A stretch of DNA of 20,962 bases, from positions 1 to 20,962 of the IMG/VR virus record IMGVR_UViG_3300010400_000058; one strand, 5' to 3'. Below are positions 3,675 to 13,682 of this stretch, one piece after another. Below the pieces are notes generated by a model, which did no database searches, had not been told where the DNA came from, and worked only from the letters and a program-made list of their open reading frames with translations. Within the stretch, counting starts at the first letter, position 1; each line of letters begins with the position of its first letter. The stretch comes from a virus. Both the position numbers and the translations under genes were made by a program.

Positions 3675-3845
3675 ATGCCGGTTGCGATCTGCGTCGAGTG
3701 CGGGGAATGCTGCATCGCGGTCTGTCCGCACTGTTCGGCCCCGGTTCATCAGGCCTACGGCTTCAACAACAAGAACTGCAGCGGCAGGCACGAGCAGAAG
3801 TGTGCAGCGGCAAAGGCTGCGAATCAGCCCGAACCCAAGAAGTGA
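3675..3845 (+). CDS. Small cysteine-rich zinc-binding protein
   Basis: A 56-residue protein starting two bases after the preceding stop. The N-terminal half packs C-V-E-C, C-C and C-P-H-C with His residues within the first 26 residues, followed by C-x-G-R-H-E-Q-K-C. This spacing fits one or two zinc sites of a RING- or ribbon-like fold. The C-terminus is short, charged and Pro-rich. I do not recognise a named family. No strong ribosome binding site of its own is visible; GGGAGGACGG lies at the end of the preceding gene, so coupled translation is likely. Confidence 0.6.
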   Translation: MPVAICVECGECCIAVCPHCSAPVHQAYGFNNKNCSGRHEQKCAAAKAANQPEPKK

Positions 3846-3871: not shown

Positions 3872-3988
3872 ATGCGTGCGATCGGGAGGGACAAGGGCGA
3901 CCGGATTTTCGGCGGCGCGATCTCGGGGAGGATCATCGTGAGCCTCCCGATCGTGCTTCTGGTGTTGCGGGTCGTGATCGGCCTGTGA
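3872..3988 (+). CDS. 38-residue single-pass membrane peptide
   Basis: ATG 3872 is preceded by a strong GGAGGAG with good spacing. The protein has a basic N-terminal part (residues 1-20) and a hydrophobic stretch of about 18 residues (21-38) rich in Ile, Val and Leu, so a single inner-membrane helix with the N-terminus inside is expected. The stop codon overlaps a possible GTG start of the ParB-like gene. It is too short for a family assignment. The strong ribosome binding site is the main reason to believe it; its function is unknown. Confidence 0.5.
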   Translation: MRAIGRDKGDRIFGGAISGRIIVSLPIVLLVLRVVIGL

Positions 3989-3999
3989 AGGAGGAGAAG

Positions 4000-5694
4000 G
4001 TGGCGACAGGGACGGTGGTGGAGCTCGAAGTCGATTTCAAGATGATCCCCCTCGAGGGGATCCTGCCCAGCGGGACCAACCCGAGGAAGACGTTCGACGC
4101 GAAGGCCCTCGAGGACCTGGCGGCGAGCATCAAGGAGAAAGGGGTCTTGCAGCCCATCCTGGTGCGGTTCAAGCCGCGGCAGCACGTGGGCGGGACGTCG
4201 ATCGCGGAGCACTACGAGCTCGTCGCCGGCGAGCGTCGCTGGCGCGCGGCGAGGAAGGCCGGACTGAAGGAGATCCCCGCCGTCATCCGTCAGCTGAGCG
4301 ACGACCAGGCCCTCGAGGCCCAGGTCGTCGAGAACCTGCAGCGGGCCGATGTTCACCCCCTCGAGGAAGCGGAGGGGTACCAGGCGCTCCTCAAGCGCGG
4401 CCGCCTTAAGGTCGAGGACCTGGCCGCGAAGGTGAACAAGAGCGTCTCCTACATCTGGCAGCGGATCAAGCTCACCGAGCTGATCCCGACCGCGCAGCAG
4501 GCCTTCCTCTCCGACCAGATCACGGCGGGCCACGCTGTGATGATCGCGAGGCTCCAGCCCAACGATCAAAAGGAGGCCCTCCAGGCCTGCATCGGCCGTG
4601 AATGGATCGGCGGCCAACACCAGCAGACGCTCGTCAGCGTCCGCGGGCTGCAGCGGTGGATCCAGGAGAACATCCACCTCAGCCTCGACGGGGCGCCATG
4701 GAAGAAAGACGACGCCGCCCTGGTCGCGGCCGCGGGACCATGCACGACCTGCCCGAAGAGGTCGGGCAACTCGCCGGCCCTCTGGCCCGAGATCTCCAGG
4801 GCCCAGGTCTGCACGGATAGGACCTGCTACCAGACCAAGCTCTCGGCCCACTCGCTCCAGCAGAAAAAGCAGCTCGAGGAAAAAGGCGAGCGGGTCGAGC
4901 GGATCTCCGAGGACTACAACCCCAGCGAGAAGGGGGTGATCGGGTGCAACGCCTACCAGGTCGCCGCCAAGAACAAGAAACGCTGCCCGGAGACGATCAA
5001 GGGCATCTACGCCGACGGGGACAAGCGCGGCCAGGTCACCGACATCTGTGTGGGCGAGAACTGCAGGATCCATCGGCAGAAGAACGCCTACGGCAGCCCG
5101 AGCCAGATGCGGAGCTCCGCCGACCAGAAAGAACGGGCAAAGGAGATTCTGAAGGAGCGCGCCACTGAGAGGGCGCGGCTCGCGATCCTGGGCGAGATTC
5201 TGAAGGTAACGAAGAGCCTGACCAGGGCGGACCTGGAGCTCGCCGCGTGCGGGTTCAATCGCTACGTCTACATGGCCTATGAGCTCACCGAATCCGAGTT
5301 CGCGCCGATCGAGGTGAATGGGCCGGACGACTGCGCGAAGGCCTCCGACAAGGACCTCGCCCGTTACATCGTCGCCGCCGCGCTCAATCGGGAGTTGCGC
5401 CTGGTCGAAGATCCCAACCTGCTCTACGCAACGGCCAAGCGCCACAAGATCGACGTGAAGTCGATCGAGAAGAAGGCCCTCGAGGCCGTCGTCTACGACC
5501 GCACGCACAAGGACCGCATGCAGCGCTGGAAGGGCCTCAAGGCCTCCGGCAACACCCGCTTCGAGATCATGACCTGCCAACTCTGCGGCCGCACCCAGGT
5601 CGAGCAGTCCAAGGGCGGCTGGCACTGGATCCGCAAGAGCGAGAAGAACAAGACCGCGCTCTGCAACGACTGCGAGCGCCTCGAGAGGAAGTAG
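4000..5694 (+). CDS. ParB-like CTPase/DNA-binding protein with C-terminal cysteine clusters
   Basis: A 564-residue protein. The N-terminal ParB/Srx domain (about 14-125) shows N-P-R-K (27-30), G-E-R-R-W-R-A-A (77-84, CTP-binding C-motif) and E-N-L-Q-R-A-D-V-H-P-L-E-E-A (111-124, P-motif). A helix-turn-helix region follows (about 135-185). The C-terminal half is unlike chromosomal ParB: it has C-x2-C-P-K-R with a downstream C-x4-C-Y, further spaced cysteines, and a final ribbon with C-Q-L-C and C-N-D-C near residues 530-560. Extended ParB-like proteins occur on plasmids and phages as partition or regulatory factors. GTG 4000 is chosen because AGGAGG lies 5 bases upstream; GTG 3985 overlaps the previous stop but lacks a site. 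No ParA is in the window. Confidence 0.85.
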   Translation: MATGTVVELEVDFKMIPLEGILPSGTNPRKTFDAKALEDLAASIKEKGVLQPILVRFKPRQHVGGTSIAEHYELVAGERRWRAARKAGLKEIPAVIRQLSDDQALEAQVVENLQRADVHPLEEAEGYQALLKRGRLKVEDLAAKVNKSVSYIWQRIKLTELIPTAQQAFLSDQITAGHAVMIARLQPNDQKEALQACIGREWIGGQHQQTLVSVRGLQRWIQENIHLSLDGAPWKKDDAALVAAAGPCTTCPKRSGNSPALWPEISRAQVCTDRTCYQTKLSAHSLQQKKQLEEKGERVERISEDYNPSEKGVIGCNAYQVAAKNKKRCPETIKGIYADGDKRGQVTDICVGENCRIHRQKNAYGSPSQMRSSADQKERAKEILKERATERARLAILGEILKVTKSLTRADLELAACGFNRYVYMAYELTESEFAPIEVNGPDDCAKASDKDLARYIVAAALNRELRLVEDPNLLYATAKRHKIDVKSIEKKALEAVVYDRTHKDRMQRWKGLKASGNTRFEIMTCQLCGRTQVEQSKGGWHWIRKSEKNKTALCNDCERLERK

Positions 5695-5810
5695 GACGTT
5701 CACCCGGGGGATGTAGTCCTGGGACAGGAGCAGCGGCCAGGCAGAGAGGGTGAGAAGTTGGCCGCGACCGGGGTGGGGTGGCCTGGGGGTCGCCCCCCAA
5801 ATATTCGGGG
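5695..5810 (+). promoter_or_regulatory. Structured 116-base leader before the zinc-finger gene
   Basis: No gene is supported here. Three hairpins can be drawn: TCCTG/CAGGA (5717-5721 with 5725-5729), GCGGCCA/TGGCCGC (5733-5739 with 5759-5765) and TGGGGG/CCCCCA (5784-5789 with 5794-5799). The last overlaps an imperfect 16-bp palindrome, CCCCAAATATTCGGGG (5795-5810), which abuts the ATG at 5811. The AATATT core is unusually AT-rich for this genome. It may be an operator, an attenuator or a terminator without a T-run; none of these is proven. Confidence 0.4.
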
Positions 5811-6419
5811 ATGAGGGGCACAGTGGGGCAAAAGAGAGAGGCGGCAGTAGCTGAAGAGAGGGCGAAGTTTTTCGAGTGTCCGGAGTGCCACGAGCACTTC
5901 CAGACGCCGGAAGGTCTCGGCTCACATCTCGAGCGGCACCGGGAGGTGCTGCCCGCGGCTCCTCCATCTCCTCTCGGCAAGCCCCGCAGTCGTCCATGCC
6001 CGCGTGGCTGCGGTCGGCACTTCAGCCTCAAGGGCGAAATCAGCGAGTGGAACGGTCACCTTGCGCTCTGCGACGGCTCGGCGCCGATCGCCGCGGTGAT
6101 CGAAGAGGTACGGAAGGAGGAACCGGTGGCGAAGTTGGAATGCCCGAAGTGCGGCAAGCGGTACCTGCGCGGCGGATCGAAGTACGAGAAGCACGTCGAG
6201 GACTGCGCCGAGGAGGACACCTCCGCCGGCGAAGGGGGGGGGGATGCCGAAACGGCCGCGCGGCCCGCCGCCGCGGCGATCGCGCCCGAGAAGGACGGCA
6301 CGGTCAAGGACCAGGTCCTCTCCATGCTCGAAGGCCTCGAGCAGCACTTCGAGGGCAAGCTCAAGCAGGTCAAGGTGCTCATCTCCGCGGTGCGGCAGGC
6401 CTCGGAGGTTGAGGGGTGA
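5811..6419 (+). CDS. Three-zinc-finger protein (C2H2 plus two C2HC) with C-terminal helix
   Basis: A 202-residue protein from ATG 5811. Finger 1 is a textbook C2H2: C23-x2-C26-x12-H39-x3-H43, with Phe and Leu at the core positions. Finger 2 is C63-x3-C67-x15-H83-x3-C87. Finger 3 is C111-x2-C114-x13-H128-x3-C132. An Ala/Gly/Glu linker (134-162) follows, then an amphipathic helix (about 163-198) that may dimerise. Multi-finger C2H2 proteins are rare in phages; DNA or RNA binding is likely. The linker is encoded partly by a run of ten G. The start is uncertain: GTG 5778 and GTG 5823 are in frame and no site is strong. The stop overlaps the next start by GTGA. Confidence 0.75.
   Translation: MRGTVGQKREAAVAEERAKFFECPECHEHFQTPEGLGSHLERHREVLPAAPPSPLGKPRSRPCPRGCGRHFSLKGEISEWNGHLALCDGSAPIAAVIEEVRKEEPVAKLECPKCGKRYLRGGSKYEKHVEDCAEEDTSAGEGGGDAETAARPAAAAIAPEKDGTVKDQVLSMLEGLEQHFEGKLKQVKVLISAVRQASEVEG
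6234..6243 (+). repeat. G10 homopolymer inside the zinc-finger gene
   Basis: Ten consecutive G fall at codons 142-145, between the fingers and the C-terminal helix. Slippage by one base would replace the last 55-60 residues, since all three frames stay open for at least 160 bases. The assembled length keeps the frame through to the GTGA overlap with the next gene. Confidence 0.85.
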
Positions 6420-6892
6420 TTCGCAACGCCTTCTTCAGTCCGGACCGCGCGCATCGCCTCTGGCTCTATCGAGGCTGGGACGAGCGGAAGCCCTACGTCT
6501 TCTACGTCGGCCTTAACCCTTCGAAGGCGGACCACAAGGTCGATGACATGACCGTGAAGAAGGGGATCGGCTTCGCCGAGATCCTGGGATGCGGGTCGGC
6601 CTACTTCGCGAACGCCCACTCGCTGATCTCAACCGATCCGAAGCGCCTATACGGCGCCCCCGATGCGATCCATCCGGATACGGATCGATACCTGCTGTCG
6701 CTCGCCGTGGGTGCCTATCGATTGATCGTCTGCTGGGGCGCCTTCCCGAAGTTCGACCAGCGATTCAACGCCGTCTCGGACCTGCTGGCTCGGTACTCAC
6801 CCAAGTGTTTCGGACGGACGCGCAACGGATACCCGCACCACATCTCCCGCATCGCCTACTCGACACCGCTCGAGGACTGGAGGCGCCCGTGA
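6416..6892 (+). CDS. DUF1643 family protein
   Basis: A 158-residue protein starting at GTG 6416, which overlaps the preceding stop and has GGAGG just upstream. The DUF1643 hallmarks are visible: a N-terminal L-W-L-Y-R segment, V-G-L-N-P-S-K-A-D (31-39), a central Y-F-A-N-A-H-S-L motif (62-69), V-C-W-G-A (109-113) and a closing Y-P-H-H-I-S-R-I-A-Y (139-148). The usual family length is about 150-170, so it is intact. The family is widespread in phages and bacteria, but its biochemical role is not established. The downstream gene starts inside its stop codon (GTGA). Confidence 0.9.
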   Translation: MIRNAFFSPDRAHRLWLYRGWDERKPYVFYVGLNPSKADHKVDDMTVKKGIGFAEILGCGSAYFANAHSLISTDPKRLYGAPDAIHPDTDRYLLSLAVGAYRLIVCWGAFPKFDQRFNAVSDLLARYSPKCFGRTRNGYPHHISRIAYSTPLEDWRRP

Positions 6893-7263
6893 GCCTCCTC
6901 TTCATCCGGGGCATTGATCTCTACGACACGCGCGAGCTGGAGATCCTCGTCGACGGCGAGGGCCTCTGCGTGGCGAACGCCTGGAACTGGGGCTCGAACC
7001 ACAAGCGCCCGGAGCTCTTCCGGATCTACCACAAGCGGACCGGGCTGCCGGTCGGGCCCCACTATGTCTCCCTCACGCTCGCGGATCACGCGCTCCGGTC
7101 GCTGCTCAAGATCCCCAACGCCAAGCAGGTCTGGAGCGAGGACCTCGCCTTCTTCCACGCGAACCGCTGGGTGAAGGCCTGGGTCGACCAGAACATCGGC
7201 CGGGCCGGAGATCTGGTCGGCGGCGAGTGGGTCGACGAGAAGGGAAAGCCGGTGAGGTCATGA
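6889..7263 (+). CDS. Phage protein of unknown function
   Basis: A 124-residue protein from GTG 6889, coupled to the DUF1643 gene by a GTGA overlap and preceded by GGAGG. It is rich in aromatic and charged residues (W-N-W-G-S-N-H-K around 37-44, F-F-H-A-N-R-W-V-K-A-W around 88-98) and looks like a compact soluble domain. No cysteine cluster, membrane segment or known catalytic motif is visible, and I do not recognise a family. It is supported by uniform G/C third positions and by tight coupling on both sides. Confidence 0.7.
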   Translation: MSLLFIRGIDLYDTRELEILVDGEGLCVANAWNWGSNHKRPELFRIYHKRTGLPVGPHYVSLTLADHALRSLLKIPNAKQVWSEDLAFFHANRWVKAWVDQNIGRAGDLVGGEWVDEKGKPVRS

Positions 7264-7496
7264 GCCGCCCTCGCCGGCCGCTGGCCCTGGCCTTCCAGGA
7301 CACCAAGGTCGTCTGCCCTCGGTGCCCGGACGTCACGCTGCAGTACTACGGCAAGCCGGACTGGATCGCGTTCGTTCGGGACTCGAGGCCGGTCCGCTTC
7401 TGGTGCCCGAAGTGCGAGTCGAAGTTCGATGCGACCGTGAAGATCGGCACGACGCCCGAAGAGGACGATCGGTCGCTGACCGAGGTAAAGAAATGA
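7260..7496 (+). CDS. Small zinc-ribbon protein
   Basis: A 78-residue protein whose ATG overlaps the previous stop (ATGA). It contains C-P-R-C (19-22) and C-P-K-C (49-52), a C-x2-C-x26-C-x2-C zinc ribbon in which beta-strand residues (L-Q-Y-Y, F-W) fall between the knuckles. The N-terminus is basic and the C-terminus acidic. This kind of ribbon can bind nucleic acid or serve as a protein-interaction module, and there is no basis for a specific function. It is the last gene before a 262-base stretch that appears not to encode protein. Confidence 0.7.
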   Translation: MSRPRRPLALAFQDTKVVCPRCPDVTLQYYGKPDWIAFVRDSRPVRFWCPKCESKFDATVKIGTTPEEDDRSLTEVKK

Positions 7497-7503
7497 CGAT
7501 CGC

Positions 7504-7641
7504 GGGGCGACGAATCGAAACCGCTGTGGCTGAGGGCCGGGAACGTAGGCACTGCCACCCGCGGAAGGGCGCTAATACCGCCCGTGGAGGTGAAGGCCTC
7601 CAACGCCTTGACCATACGACCCGGTTCGATTCGTCGGCCCC
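7504..7641 (+). ncRNA. Candidate structured RNA closed by a long terminal stem
   Basis: The stretch 7497-7758 shows no convincing gene. CGACGAATCGAA (7508-7519) is perfectly complementary to TTCGATTCGTCG (7625-7636). The helix extends outward by GGGG (7504-7507) with CCCC (7638-7641) across one bulged G, and inward by CCG (7521-7523) with CGG (7622-7624) across one bulged A, giving about 19 pairs. Enclosed hairpins include GTGGC/GCCAC (7526-7530 with 7554-7558), GGGCG/CGCCC (7567-7571 with 7579-7583, loop CTAATAC), and either GGAGG/CCTCC (7586-7590 with 7597-7601) or AAGGC/GCCTT (7593-7597 with 7605-7609). The multibranched fold resembles a riboswitch, ribozyme or small RNA; I cannot match it to a known class. 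It could also be the leader of the XRE gene at 7759. Confidence 0.5.
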
Positions 7642-7667
7642 CGGTCGCCAGGAGGCCCTGAGGCTCA

Positions 7668-7677
7668 CCCCCCCCCC
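7668..7677 (+). repeat. C10 homopolymer in the intergenic leader
   Basis: Ten consecutive C follow the folded region and precede the XRE-type gene by about 80 bases. It is the second 10-base homopolymer within 1.5 kb. Confidence 0.85.
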
Positions 7678-7758
7678 ATCTGAGATCGAGATCCTCGAGT
7701 GGCCACCGCTTCCCGTTCCGCTCATTCCAAGAAACCTAGATTGAAGGAGATCACGCAC

Positions 7759-8100
7759 ATGCTCACGTTCGGACAGCGCATCAAGCAAGCCCGCCTGGCG
7801 AAGGGCTGGACGCTCGAGAAAACCGCCAAGGCGGTCCGGTCCCACAAGGGCTACATCTCGGGCATCGAGAACGGCAAGGTGAAGGCGCCGTCGCCCAAGA
7901 TCATCCCCCTCCTCTGCTCGAAGCTGGAGCTGCCCCTCACGGAGCTGATGGCGCTCGCCTGGTGGGAGAAGCGGCCCAAGGCCGTCACCGCGATCGCGGC
8001 CCACGAGCTGCTCTCCCTGGTCCGGGAGGAGGAGGCGAAGCAGAAGAGCGACGAGAGCCAGGTCCTGCCGCCTTCGGCGCCGGCGAAGGAGGCGGTGTAG
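7759..8100 (+). CDS. XRE-family helix-turn-helix regulator
   Basis: A 113-residue protein from ATG 7759 with GAAGGAG about 9 bases upstream. Residues 4-63 form a Cro/CI-type HTH_3 domain: F-G-Q-R-I-K-Q-A-R, then W-T-L-E-K-T-A-K-A-V, the turn and recognition helix S-H-K-G-Y-I-S-G-I-E-N-G-K, and the L-C-S-K-L-E-L-P closing helix. The C-terminal 40 residues are charged and flexible with no peptidase or ligand domain, so it is a small regulator rather than a LexA-like repressor. It binds DNA in the cytoplasm and may control this early region. The long structured leader in front of it suggests RNA-level control of its own expression, which is inference. Confidence 0.85.
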   Translation: MLTFGQRIKQARLAKGWTLEKTAKAVRSHKGYISGIENGKVKAPSPKIIPLLCSKLELPLTELMALAWWEKRPKAVTAIAAHELLSLVREEEAKQKSDESQVLPPSAPAKEAV

Positions 8101-8643: not shown

Positions 8644-8988
8644 GTGGCGGAAACGACGGAGAAAGGCGAGGGCCTGAAGAAGCTCAAGCAGGCCCGGCTG
8701 CCGGGGCTGACCAAGGGCAAGGCCGGCGGTCCGATCAAGAAGGTCCAGGAGGTGGAGGACGCGGCGACCGCGTGGGACCAGAAGGTGAAGGAGCGGATGG
8801 AAATGACCAAGGACGAGGTCAAGCTCCACAACGCGCTCCTGACCCTGATGGAGAAGCACAAGATCCCCGAGTACCGCCTGGGCAACACGATCTTCCGCCG
8901 CACCGAGGGCAAGCGGAAGGTGAAGCGGGTCCGCGTCACCGACGAGGACCAGGTCGAGGCGGACGAGAAGGACGAGGCGGCCGAGTAA
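8644..8988 (+). CDS. Small charged protein upstream of RuvC, function unknown
   Basis: A 114-residue protein from GTG 8644, preceded by AAAGGAGA. The N-terminal 45 residues are rich in Lys and Gly and probably disordered. Residues 45-80 look helical (V-K-L-H-N-A-L-L-T-L-M-E-K-H-K). Residues 82-104 form a strand-turn-strand ending in basic K-R-K-V-K-R-V-R-V, and the tail is strongly acidic. The region around Y-R-L-G-N-T-I-F-R-R resembles small phage proteins encoded immediately before RuvC-like resolvases. The stop TAA shares its last base with the RuvC start, so translation is probably coupled. Confidence 0.65.
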   Translation: MAETTEKGEGLKKLKQARLPGLTKGKAGGPIKKVQEVEDAATAWDQKVKERMEMTKDEVKLHNALLTLMEKHKIPEYRLGNTIFRRTEGKRKVKRVRVTDEDQVEADEKDEAAE

Positions 8989-9461
8989 TGTCCCGCTTCG
9001 TCCTCGGTCTCGATCCCGGCACCCACTTCGCCGGCTACGCGCTGATCGATGTCCGTCGTCCTGGGCTCTACCGAGCCCAGGCGATGGGCACGATCGTGAT
9101 GCGGGACGGCCCGCTCCATACGCGCCTGGCCCAGGTGATGGGCGAGCTGATCCCCATCCTCGACCAGGCTCGCGAGAAGAACGCGGAGTGCGTGGTCGAG
9201 CGTCCGTTCGTGAACAAGAACCACATGGCGACGCTCGCGATCGCCGGGTGCCGGGCCATTTGTCTCGCGCTGATCGGCGGCGCCGAGCTGCGCTTCACCG
9301 AGTACTCCCCGCAGACCTGGAAGCGGATCACGGGCAAGGGCAACGCCCAGAAGATCGAGGTCGCCAACGTCGTCAAGCGGATCCTCAACCTGGATTTCGA
9401 TCCGCCGCTCGACGCGGCCGACGCGGCCGGCATGGCGATCTATCACGCGCACACGAGCTGA
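8988..9461 (+). CDS. ruvC-like: RuvC-like Holliday junction resolvase
   Basis: A 157-residue protein of the usual size for RuvC. The RNase H-fold active site is complete: D9 in L-G-L-D-P-G-T-x-x-x-G-Y, E71 in V-V-E-R-P-F, and D142 and D145 in L-D-A-A-D-A-A-G-M-A-I-Y-H-A. The Y-S-P-Q-T-W-K segment (106-112) and the G-K-G-N-A-Q-K turn (116-122) are typical of phage members. The enzyme would cut four-way or branched DNA made by the recombination module or left before packaging. ATG 8988 overlaps the previous stop by one base. No RuvA or RuvB is visible, as usual for phages. Confidence 0.92.
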   Translation: MSRFVLGLDPGTHFAGYALIDVRRPGLYRAQAMGTIVMRDGPLHTRLAQVMGELIPILDQAREKNAECVVERPFVNKNHMATLAIAGCRAICLALIGGAELRFTEYSPQTWKRITGKGNAQKIEVANVVKRILNLDFDPPLDAADAAGMAIYHAHTS

Positions 9462-9510: not shown

Positions 9511-11001
9511 GTGGCAGACCAACAGGATCCTGCCGTAGTCCAGGAGAAGGGGCTCGTCGGCTCCCTTCTGTGGGCCGACGCACGCCAGGGCGAGCGCTTC
9601 AAGATCTCGAAGGAGATCACCCGCGGCTGGGAGCCGTTCGTCATTCCCCAGCACCGGATCATCCTCGCGGCGCTCGAGACGGTCCTCAGCCGCGAGGCCC
9701 AGTGCGATCTCCCCATGCTGCACGGGGAGCTCGCCGCCACCGGGAAGCTCGCGGAGGTCGGCGGCGCCGACGCGCTGGTCGGGCTCATCCAGGAGCTTCC
9801 CAATCCAGATCATTCCGAGAGCTACGCGAAAGGCGTCGTCCGGCTGGCCAGCCGTCGCAAGGCCCTTCGACTCATCAAGCAGGTGAACGACCTGGTAGTG
9901 AAGGGCGAGGACCTGAACGGCGAGCTCGAGGAGCTCGCCCTCGCCACCATGGAGGCGACCGAGATCTCGAGGACCACGAAGAAGAAGACCTGGGAGGAAA
10001 TCACCGGCTCACCAGTCGTCCACGGCGAGCAGCTCCTCCGGGCCGCGGAGACGCCCCTCGAGTATGTCGTCGACCCGATCGTCCCGCGCGGATACCTCAC
10101 CCAGATCCACGGCCCGCCGAAGGGCGGCAAGTCGAGCTTCACGCTGTTCCTGGGGGTCGCCACCAGCATGGGAATCTGGCCCGAGAAGGCGCTCCTCCAG
10201 AGCAAGGCGCAGAAGGTCCTCTACCTCACCTGGGAGGACATGCTGCCGCTGATCTCGAAGCGAATCCTGTCCTACGCCCGAGGCCTCGGGTCGAACGGGA
10301 TCCCGCCCAACCTACACGTCGTCGAGATGCCGCTCCTCCTCATGAACGTCGCGGAGCATGCCCAGGCGCTCGAAGAGAAAATCGCAAGCGAGCGCTACGA
10401 CCTGGTCGTGCTCGACACCATCAGCCACGCCCACGGCGTCGACGAGGACAAGGCCTCCGAGATCAAGCTCGTCATGCAGATCCTCCAGCGCATCGCCAAG
10501 AACTGCCGCTGCGCGATCATGTACGTCCACCACCGGAGGAAGAACGGCGAGGGCGTCTCGATGTCGGAGCGCGGCCGCGGATCGACCGCGATCGGGGCCG
10601 CACCGGTCTCGATCATCGACTGGGGCGACCGCGGCGACGGCGATATCACGCCGGTTTCCATTACGTCGAAGTTCGACTACCGGGCGAAGTGGGAAGTCGA
10701 GTACATCCGCCAGAACGACGACGCCGTCCGGTGGGAGATCCGCGAGCAGGAATCCAACAAAAAGAAGCGCGGCGGCGGGACCGACGGAGTCTTCAAGGTC
10801 ATCCAGGAACTCTCCGTTGCAGCCGGCGGGGGCGAGATCCCGGGCAAGCAGATCGTCTCCGTCATGGCCGATCAGGGGGTCTCCAAGACCCACGTCTACA
10901 GGCATCTCCACTCGCTTCAGGAAGCGATGGCCATCACTTCGGTGGTCCGTGGAAACGCGACGTTCTACCGGCTGAACTCGGTGAAATGTGACGCTAAATA
11001 A
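9511..11001 (+). CDS. Replicative helicase: DnaB N-terminal-like domain fused to a RepA/AAA_25 ATPase
   Basis: A 496-residue protein from GTG 9511 with AGGAGAGAGAGG upstream. Residues about 5-125 follow the DnaB N-terminal pattern (E-K-x-L-V-G-S-L-L, P-Q-H-R-I-I-L-A-A-L, L-P-M-L-H-G-E-L, L-A-E-V-G-G-A-D-A-L, Y-A-x-x-V-V-R-L-A-S-R-R). Residues about 180-400 are a RecA-fold ATPase of RepA type: Walker A G-P-P-K-G-G-K-S-S (201-209), Walker B L-V-V-L-D-T-I-S (298-305) and a H-H-R-R sensor (340-343). A winged-helix region ends the protein (about 425-490). It should be the phage replicative helicase or initiator. The fusion replaces the usual DnaB motor. The stop TAA lies at the edge of the repeat block that may be its target. 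Confidence 0.85.
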   Translation: MADQQDPAVVQEKGLVGSLLWADARQGERFKISKEITRGWEPFVIPQHRIILAALETVLSREAQCDLPMLHGELAATGKLAEVGGADALVGLIQELPNPDHSESYAKGVVRLASRRKALRLIKQVNDLVVKGEDLNGELEELALATMEATEISRTTKKKTWEEITGSPVVHGEQLLRAAETPLEYVVDPIVPRGYLTQIHGPPKGGKSSFTLFLGVATSMGIWPEKALLQSKAQKVLYLTWEDMLPLISKRILSYARGLGSNGIPPNLHVVEMPLLLMNVAEHAQALEEKIASERYDLVVLDTISHAHGVDEDKASEIKLVMQILQRIAKNCRCAIMYVHHRRKNGEGVSMSERGRGSTAIGAAPVSIIDWGDRGDGDITPVSITSKFDYRAKWEVEYIRQNDDAVRWEIREQESNKKKRGGGTDGVFKVIQELSVAAGGGEIPGKQIVSVMADQGVSKTHVYRHLHSLQEAMAITSVVRGNATFYRLNSVKCDAK

Positions 11002-11057
11002 CTCGTCCCAAAACTCGTCCCATCGGGATTTGGAGTGTGGGACGAGAACTCGTCCCA

Positions 11058-11094
11058 CGTCCCATCCCTCTAGGAGAGGGAGAGGGATGGGACG
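11058..11094 (+). repeat. 14-bp perfect inverted repeat within the repeat block
   Basis: CGTCCCATCCCTCT (11058-11071) is exactly complementary to AGAGGGATGGGACG (11081-11094) around a 9-base purine loop. The right arm merges with a TGGGACGAGT box. No T-run follows, so a cruciform or protein-bound structure is more likely than a terminator. Confidence 0.8.
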
Positions 11095-11123
11095 AGTTAC
11101 GACGGCAAACATGGAACGAGTTT

Positions 11124-11216: not shown

Positions 11217-13034
11217 GTGGCGAGAATCGAGATCGGGCGCGCGGATAAGAGGGCGGTCCACTTGGACTTGGACGTCCTCCTGCGGACGCGGGCCCTGGTG
11301 CAGGCCAACAGCGGCGGCGGCAAGTCCTGGCTCGCCCGGCGCCTGGCCGAGCAGCTCTTCGGGAAGGTGCCCGTCTGGATCATCGACCCGGAGGGCGAGT
11401 TCAACACGCTGCGTGAGGACGGCAAGTTCGATTTCTTCCTGGTCGGCAAGGGCGGCGATACGCCGGCGGATCCGCGCACGGCGGAGCTCGTGGCCCACAA
11501 GCTCCTCGAGCTGGGCGCATCGGCGGTGTTCGACCTCTACGACCTGAAGCCCCAGACGCGCCACCACTGGGTCCGCGTCTTCCTCGAGGCCCTGGTCAAC
11601 GCGCCGAAGTCGCTCTGGCGGCCCCTGATCCTTATGCTGGACGAGGCCCACGTCTACGCCCCCGAGAAGGGCCAGGGCGAGAGCGAGGCCTTCGGCGCCG
11701 TTCAGGACGTCGTCACGCGCGGGCGAAAGCGCGGGATCTGCCCGATCCTCTACACGCAGCGCCTCGCCAAGCTCTCGAAGAACGTGTCGGCCGAGCTCCT
11801 CAACCGCCTGGTCGGGATGACGTTCGAGGGCGTCGACGTCGACCGGGCCGCGGAGGTCCTCTCCGTGCCCAAGAGCGAGCGCGAGGGCTTCAAGGTCGAG
11901 ATCAAGTCCCTCGAGCCCGGGCAGTTCTACGGCCTGGGCCCCGCGATCGCGAAGGACCGCACGCTCATCATGGTCGGGCCCGTCGTCACCTCGCACCGGG
12001 AAGTGGGCTCGAAGAAGTTCTCGGCCGAGCCCCCGCCGCCGTCGGAGAAGATCAAGGCGCTGCTCCCCAAGCTGAAGGATCTCCCCCAGGAGGCGGAAGC
12101 GAAGGCGAAGACCGAGGCGGAGCTCCGCGGCGAGATCCGGTCGCTCAAGGCGCAGCTCGCCTCGAGGCCGAAGGACCCCACCCCCCTCCCGGCCCCGGCC
12201 CCCGTCCCCAAGCCCGTCCGGGTCGAAATCCCGGTCATCCCGCCCGCGCAGCTGGTCCGCCTCGAGAAGGCGATGGCGAACGCCGTCACGGCTGCCGGCA
12301 AGTGCGACAGCATCGCCGTCATGCTGCGCGGCTTCTCCGATCTGGTCACCGAGAATGTGAAGAAGATCGAGCAGCGGGCCCGCCGGCCCGAGCCGGTCCT
12401 CACCCCCATCCCGGCGCACGGCGCGAAGGTCAAGCCCATGCCGACGCCGGCAGAGTCGGTGTCCCAACTACAGACGTCTGCACTCCTGGCCCGCGTTCCC
12501 TTCTGGCCCGTTCCGTTCCTGCCTTCAGCCGATCGCGACACCACCGTCTCCCGTCCCCAGCTCCGGATCCTCCAGGCCCTGGCCATGTTCGAGGCCCTGG
12601 GCTTCAGCGAGGTCCCGCGCACGTGGATCGCACCGCTCGCCGACACGACCTGGAAGTCGAGCGGCTTCGAGAAGAACGTCTCGACGCTGAAGACCGGCGG
12701 ATACGTCGACGTGGGCAGCCCGGGCAACCTCCGGATCCTGTCGCCCGGGCGCGGCGAGGTCGGCGATCAGCCGGCGCCGACCCACGAGCTGCTCCTCCAG
12801 AAGTGCGCCGCGGCGATCTCCACGCCCCAGGCCGCGATCCTGAACAACCTGGTCCAGGTCTATCCCCAGGACCTCGACCGCGAGGAGATCGCGGCCAGGT
12901 CCGGCACCACCGTCACCTCAAGCGGATTCGAGAAGAACATGAGCACGCTCAAGACCGCGGGCATGATCGAGATCTCCGGCAAGGGCCGGGCTCGTGCCGC
13001 GGCTTGGCTGTTCGCTGAAAGGAGAGAGGCATGA
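11217..13034 (+). CDS. HerA/FtsK-like ATPase (DUF87 type) with duplicated C-terminal winged-helix motifs
   Basis: A 605-residue protein from GTG 11217, chosen for the GGAAGGGAGGG about 8 bases upstream; GTG 11166 is also in frame but lacks a site. The N-terminal ATPase has Walker A N-S-G-G-G-K-S (31-37), W-I-I-D-P-E-G-E-F (54-62), Walker B L-I-L-M-L-D-E-A-H-V-Y-A-P (137-149), then T-R-G-R-K-R-G and Y-T-Q-R-L (likely sensor and arginine finger). These match HerA-like hexameric DNA translocases. A Glu/Lys coil and Pro-rich linker follow (about 285-450). Two C-terminal helical modules share S-S-G-F-E-K-N-x-S-T-L-K-T-x-G at 481 and 568, 87 residues apart. No NurA nuclease is adjacent. It may move or load DNA at the neighbouring repeat block. 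Confidence 0.82.
   Translation: MARIEIGRADKRAVHLDLDVLLRTRALVQANSGGGKSWLARRLAEQLFGKVPVWIIDPEGEFNTLREDGKFDFFLVGKGGDTPADPRTAELVAHKLLELGASAVFDLYDLKPQTRHHWVRVFLEALVNAPKSLWRPLILMLDEAHVYAPEKGQGESEAFGAVQDVVTRGRKRGICPILYTQRLAKLSKNVSAELLNRLVGMTFEGVDVDRAAEVLSVPKSEREGFKVEIKSLEPGQFYGLGPAIAKDRTLIMVGPVVTSHREVGSKKFSAEPPPPSEKIKALLPKLKDLPQEAEAKAKTEAELRGEIRSLKAQLASRPKDPTPLPAPAPVPKPVRVEIPVIPPAQLVRLEKAMANAVTAAGKCDSIAVMLRGFSDLVTENVKKIEQRARRPEPVLTPIPAHGAKVKPMPTPAESVSQLQTSALLARVPFWPVPFLPSADRDTTVSRPQLRILQALAMFEALGFSEVPRTWIAPLADTTWKSSGFEKNVSTLKTGGYVDVGSPGNLRILSPGRGEVGDQPAPTHELLLQKCAAAISTPQAAILNNLVQVYPQDLDREEIAARSGTTVTSSGFEKNMSTLKTAGMIEISGKGRARAAAWLFAERREA
12471..12482. repeat. Copy 1 of CAGACGTCTGCA palindromic motif
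   Basis: CAGACGTCTG is a perfect 10-bp palindrome inside the HerA-like coding region. The same 12 bases recur in an intergenic gap at 15974-15985. Confidence 0.6.
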
Positions 13035-13578: not shown

Positions 13579-13682
13579 ACGACGCCCTAGTACCCCACCC
13601 CAGCTGTCGGGCCGGGCACGCTGTTCCATTCTCTCCCGCAACAGAGACCGGAGCCCGGCCCGAACTGGGTGGAGGCTTCTGA
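13575..13682 (+). CDS. Possible 35-residue peptide, doubtful
   Basis: The frame starts with an ATG overlapping the previous stop (ATGA) and ends in a TGA overlapping the next ATG (TGATG), so it would be perfectly coupled on both sides. Third positions are less G/C-rich than in neighbouring genes, and most of the frame lies inside a strong hairpin (13595-13672). It may be a leader peptide that lets ribosomes open the hairpin and reach the downstream start, or just a spacer. The peptide is Pro- and Gly-rich and has no recognisable motif. Confidence 0.3.
   Translation: MNDALVPHPSCRAGHAVPFSPATETGARPELGGGF
13595..13672 (+). promoter_or_regulatory. Long hairpin ending at the ribosome binding site of the 81-residue gene
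   Basis: TCGGGCCGGGC (13607-13617) pairs perfectly with GCCCGGCCCGA (13653-13663). Outside an internal loop, CCACCCCAG (13595-13603) pairs with CTGGGTGG (13665-13672), with one bulged C. Inside, CTGTT (13621-13625) pairs with AACAG (13640-13644). The GGAGG for the gene at 13682 begins at 13671, so its first two bases are in the 3' arm. A translational switch is the simplest reading. Confidence 0.6.

Follow-up and report, generated by a model that had tools for sequence, protein, structure and literature searches.

A strong inverted repeat in an apparently non-coding spacer ahead of an XRE-type regulator gene of a phage

The ends of a segment lying just ahead of an XRE-type regulator gene pair with each other in a real closing stem, and the two arms of this stem carry all of the folding signal of the segment. 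The DNA analysed here (the window) comprises the 20,962 nucleotides of a 21-kb virus record. Profile and protein matches identify among its gene products a single-strand binding protein, a helicase, exonucleases, a ParB-like protein and RuvC, as well as a DnaB-like/AAA protein, a HerA-like ATPase, the large terminase and the portal. We favour, at about an even chance, a generic or non-functional foldback in a lineage-specific non-coding spacer; the analysis does not establish the segment as a member of a defined class of multibranched RNAs. The features discussed are the following:

7263-7496, + strand: upstream small gene, with weak zinc-ribbon-like matches below curated cut-offs
7493-7744, open on the + strand: spacer, open for 83 codons, without coding signal by codon statistics and without a protein match
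7494-7519, + strand: 5' arm of the inverted repeat, 26 nt, 85% complementary, ungapped score 18, beginning at the upstream gene's stop codon
7523-7621, + strand: enclosed region, drawn as several hairpins, folding no better than shuffles (z -0.91)
7625-7650, + strand: 3' arm of the inverted repeat, located by repeat search, pair probabilities and ungapped score
7759-8100, + strand: downstream XRE/HTH-type regulator gene, with PHROG transcriptional-regulator matches and an 81% identical protein in a relative

The closing stem and its interior

The arms at 7494-7519 and 7625-7650 match without gaps at 22 of 26 positions, and their ungapped score is the maximum of the window, where the runner-up reaches 15. 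The preliminary description had proposed a perfect 12-bp core extended on both sides, and the sequence bears this out: the core (7508-7519 with 7625-7636) is perfect and the stem continues outward to about 7497/7647, with pair probabilities of approximately 1 for 7497-7502 and 7509-7517 and approximately 0.84 for 7504-7507. The 138-mer folds as described, with a minimum free energy of -69.8 kcal/mol that none of 200 shuffles equalled (z -4.03; in a set of 2000, one shuffle did as well). For the repeat together with its interior, folding as DNA gives z -4.07.

The general mark of a structured RNA, an interior that folds better than its shuffles, is absent here, as the enclosed 99 nt have a z of -0.91 and 356 of 2000 shuffles fold as well. 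The whole 251-nt spacer gives z -1.43. These two values indicate that the internal hairpins, among them those at 7567-7583 and 7585-7602, whose pair probabilities are about 0.5-0.9, have no signal of their own and are what such a base composition forms anyway. Thus, the multibranched fold with at least three inner hairpins that was originally described can be drawn, but its hairpins do not stand as a signal.

The closing stem, too, is more ordinary than it appears. Perfect inverted repeats of 12 bp or longer whose loops measure 20-250 nt occur five times in the window, against 0.7 expected in shuffles, so the window is richer in such repeats than shuffling predicts, and the 12-bp core is one of several. 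Inverted repeats scoring at least 18 number nine in 0.64 Mb of GC-rich phage loci, or about 0.3 per 21 kb, a rough rate given that some of these repeats cluster in one locus and that the loci were fetched for other reasons. A sliding fold scan (30 shuffles per position) places several other regions at z of about -4.5 or lower, namely around 650, 8953-9090, 9601, 10957-11053, 15385 and 16429. Several regions of the window exceed the 138-mer in absolute z, some of them within genes; the stretch at 8953-9090, which runs from the end of one gene into the beginning of the following one, reaches z -5.05 when compared with 200 shuffles. In GC-rich phage DNA, an end-pairing stem this strong is met about every 70 kb, and the value of the case lies mainly in caution, as base composition by itself accounts for the multibranched drawing inside the stem.

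The strongest fold of the window (z -7.2) lies elsewhere, in an intergenic cluster at 10995-11110, after the DnaB-like/AAA gene, where ACTCGTCCC / GGGACGAGT repeats occur in both orientations. These repeats are possibly an origin or operator cluster.

Coding statistics and searches for known families

The spacer looks non-coding. It is the one long stretch of the early region without coding signal, and a 250-nt spacer is unusual among such tightly packed genes. GC by codon position in the 7493-7744 frame is 0.70/0.57/0.65; the low third-position G/C noted earlier is borne out by a GC3 of 0.65, where the remaining genes with a correctly assigned frame have 0.71-0.96. The codon log-odds score of the frame (-0.14) falls below that of every correctly framed gene, all of which are positive. 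This comparison leaves out rows 3676-3845 and 3980-5694, which were scored in the wrong frame; the latter was also part of the codon-score training set, which slightly weakens the score and leaves the GC3 comparison unaffected. No 3-base periodicity was detected in pieces of 7493-7744. The 83-codon frame has no PHROG match and retrieves neither a phage record by tblastn nor a viral contig, and the longer version of the frame (7322-7741) matches no Pfam family. An XRE-type gene does follow the element, at 7759-8100. Runs of ten G (6234-6243) and ten C (7668-7677) stand in otherwise mixed sequence; the length of these runs may be misassembled, which matters for frames that cross them.

A search of the window against Rfam 15, recommended earlier, yields no family at gathering thresholds; the best sub-threshold matches are snoZ168 at 18.7 bits and tRNA-Sec at 18.1 bits (gathering 47). 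ARAGORN finds no tRNA or tmRNA in the window, in line with the earlier statement that the element matches no tRNA. With introns allowed and the score lowered, it reports nothing beyond two overlapping low-score artefacts that draw on the arms of the repeat. Searches with blastn against phages and plasmids returned short weak matches only, and scanning IMG/VR with 14-mer arm sequence yielded no homolog among the matches listed, many of which are expected by chance. A paired-arm pattern run over the genome collection and IMG/VR gave eight matches, none like the element, and a literature search found nothing relevant.

Three specific identities were considered and rejected. Near matches to the arm motif number 33 in the window, as many as expected by chance (32.9), which argues against an operator for the XRE regulator. 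On inspection of the sequence, the T-stem pairing of a tRNA attachment site is absent, as is the R'/R'' core of an integron attC site.

The spacer in a relative phage

Relatives were sought by protein scans with the XRE gene, the helicase, the gene at 6889-7260 and the 83-codon frame. The sole close relative found is IMGVR_UViG_3300045933_000271 (L002/L126); the search set may omit the records closest to the window, and phages almost identical to it could thus have escaped notice. Its XRE protein is 81% identical, and the main shared DNA blocks around the XRE gene are 83-94% identical. The relative encodes a tyrosine integrase and is therefore probably a temperate phage.

The two phages show no alignment from about window position 6099 to 7743, and homology resumes at 7744. 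By alignment the element is absent from the relative, where blastn gives one 17-nt chance match and a single-sequence covariance model does not find the element. Instead, an open frame, sigma-factor-like in appearance, reaches the XRE leader. Absence from one relative is no proof of absent function. The frame at L126 2-1441 is sigma-factor-like at its start and then continues stop-free into sequence aligning with the window gene at 5778-6419; it is possibly a fusion or an artefact.

Elsewhere in the two phages, an intergenic hairpin-forming block of 79 nt is identical between window positions 13591-13669 and L126 7050-7128. Its stem is CGGGCCGGGC / GCCCGGCCCG (z -3.7), over most of the adjoining block the two phages are about 83% identical in their aligned DNA, and neither an Rfam family nor a match in phage records was found for it. 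An 80-nt identical run also occurs within a gene (12534-12613), and the identity of the intergenic block may accordingly reflect recent recombination.

Alternative readings and likeness to known systems

The reading we prefer, with roughly even confidence, is that of a plain foldback. The signal is confined to the arms, comparable repeats occur elsewhere, the statistics of the spacer are non-coding, and the element is absent from the relative and has no homolog; the points against are that no other inverted repeat in the window scores as high, that this one starts exactly at the upstream stop codon, and that it lies in the long stretch without coding signal, where so wide a spacer is unusual. 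The spacer would be a 250-nt non-coding stretch specific to the phage lineage, set between the small gene and the XRE regulator gene and holding one imperfect 26-nt inverted repeat. The region would presumably be transcribed together with its neighbours, in which case the arms would form a long GC-rich stem from the upstream stop codon onward. At most this might serve as a generic mRNA stem that slows 3' exonucleases on the upstream message and also separates translation of the two genes, or the stem may have no function.

The non-coding character of the region, the strong closing stem (z -4) and the lack of an Rfam family at gathering scores would also suit an RNA of a class outside Rfam in which a long helix closes a core of several hairpins, serving either as a dedicated non-coding RNA of the phage or as a cis-regulatory leader for the XRE gene. 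We regard this as a minority possibility, as its core is at chance level, no homolog or conservation in the relative was found, and a scan for a simple sigma-70 consensus detects no sigma-70-like promoter (other promoter types lie outside that scan). Its more specific form, a hitherto undescribed regulatory RNA of about 150 nt, with a long terminal helix, that only some phages of the lineage would encode, in its own spacer before an XRE-type regulator, we think unlikely; if real, it would extend the scarce knowledge of RNAs in uncultured phages by one regulatory class. Pairing of the arms is possible on both strands and also in DNA (z -4.07), and this phage carries the segment whereas the relative, in which homology resumes at 7744, does not, as might be expected if the repeat acted at the DNA level, either as the ends of a small non-autonomous mobile element or as a protein-binding or recombination site. 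However, the repeat ends show no target-site duplication, no second copy turns up in the window, the relative or the collections searched, and the non-aligning block (about 6099-7743) is far larger than the repeat, making this reading improbable. The features of a miniature inverted-repeat transposable element are likewise missing, with no duplication at 7494/7650 and no further copy in the window or relative. Most doubtful is a real small gene, running from the ATG at 7493 to the TGA at 7744 and translated by coupling to the upstream gene. Its start overlaps the upstream stop (ATGA) and a GAGG ribosome-binding-like site precedes it, but its GC3 (0.65), lack of periodicity and codon score below every correctly framed gene all speak against it, as do the absence of a protein homolog and the ten-C run (7668-7677) within the frame.

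Retron non-coding RNAs are similar in length to the element and have long pairing arms at both ends. The element differs from them in having no single long inner hairpin and no Rfam match, and no reverse transcriptase is found among the scanned proteins of the window, which is itself a fragment. With the phage-associated structured non-coding RNAs of several Rfam classes it shares a length of about 140-155 nt, a long helix pairing the ends and a location in a non-coding spacer, but here there is no Rfam match at gathering scores, no conserved interior and no homologs. The mRNA-stabilising intergenic stem-loops of bacteria and phages usually have a far shorter loop than the approximately 105 nt seen here, and the element, whose part as an mRNA stem is presumptive, has no second copy; with them it shares a GC-rich inverted repeat that directly follows a stop codon and separates two genes of like orientation.
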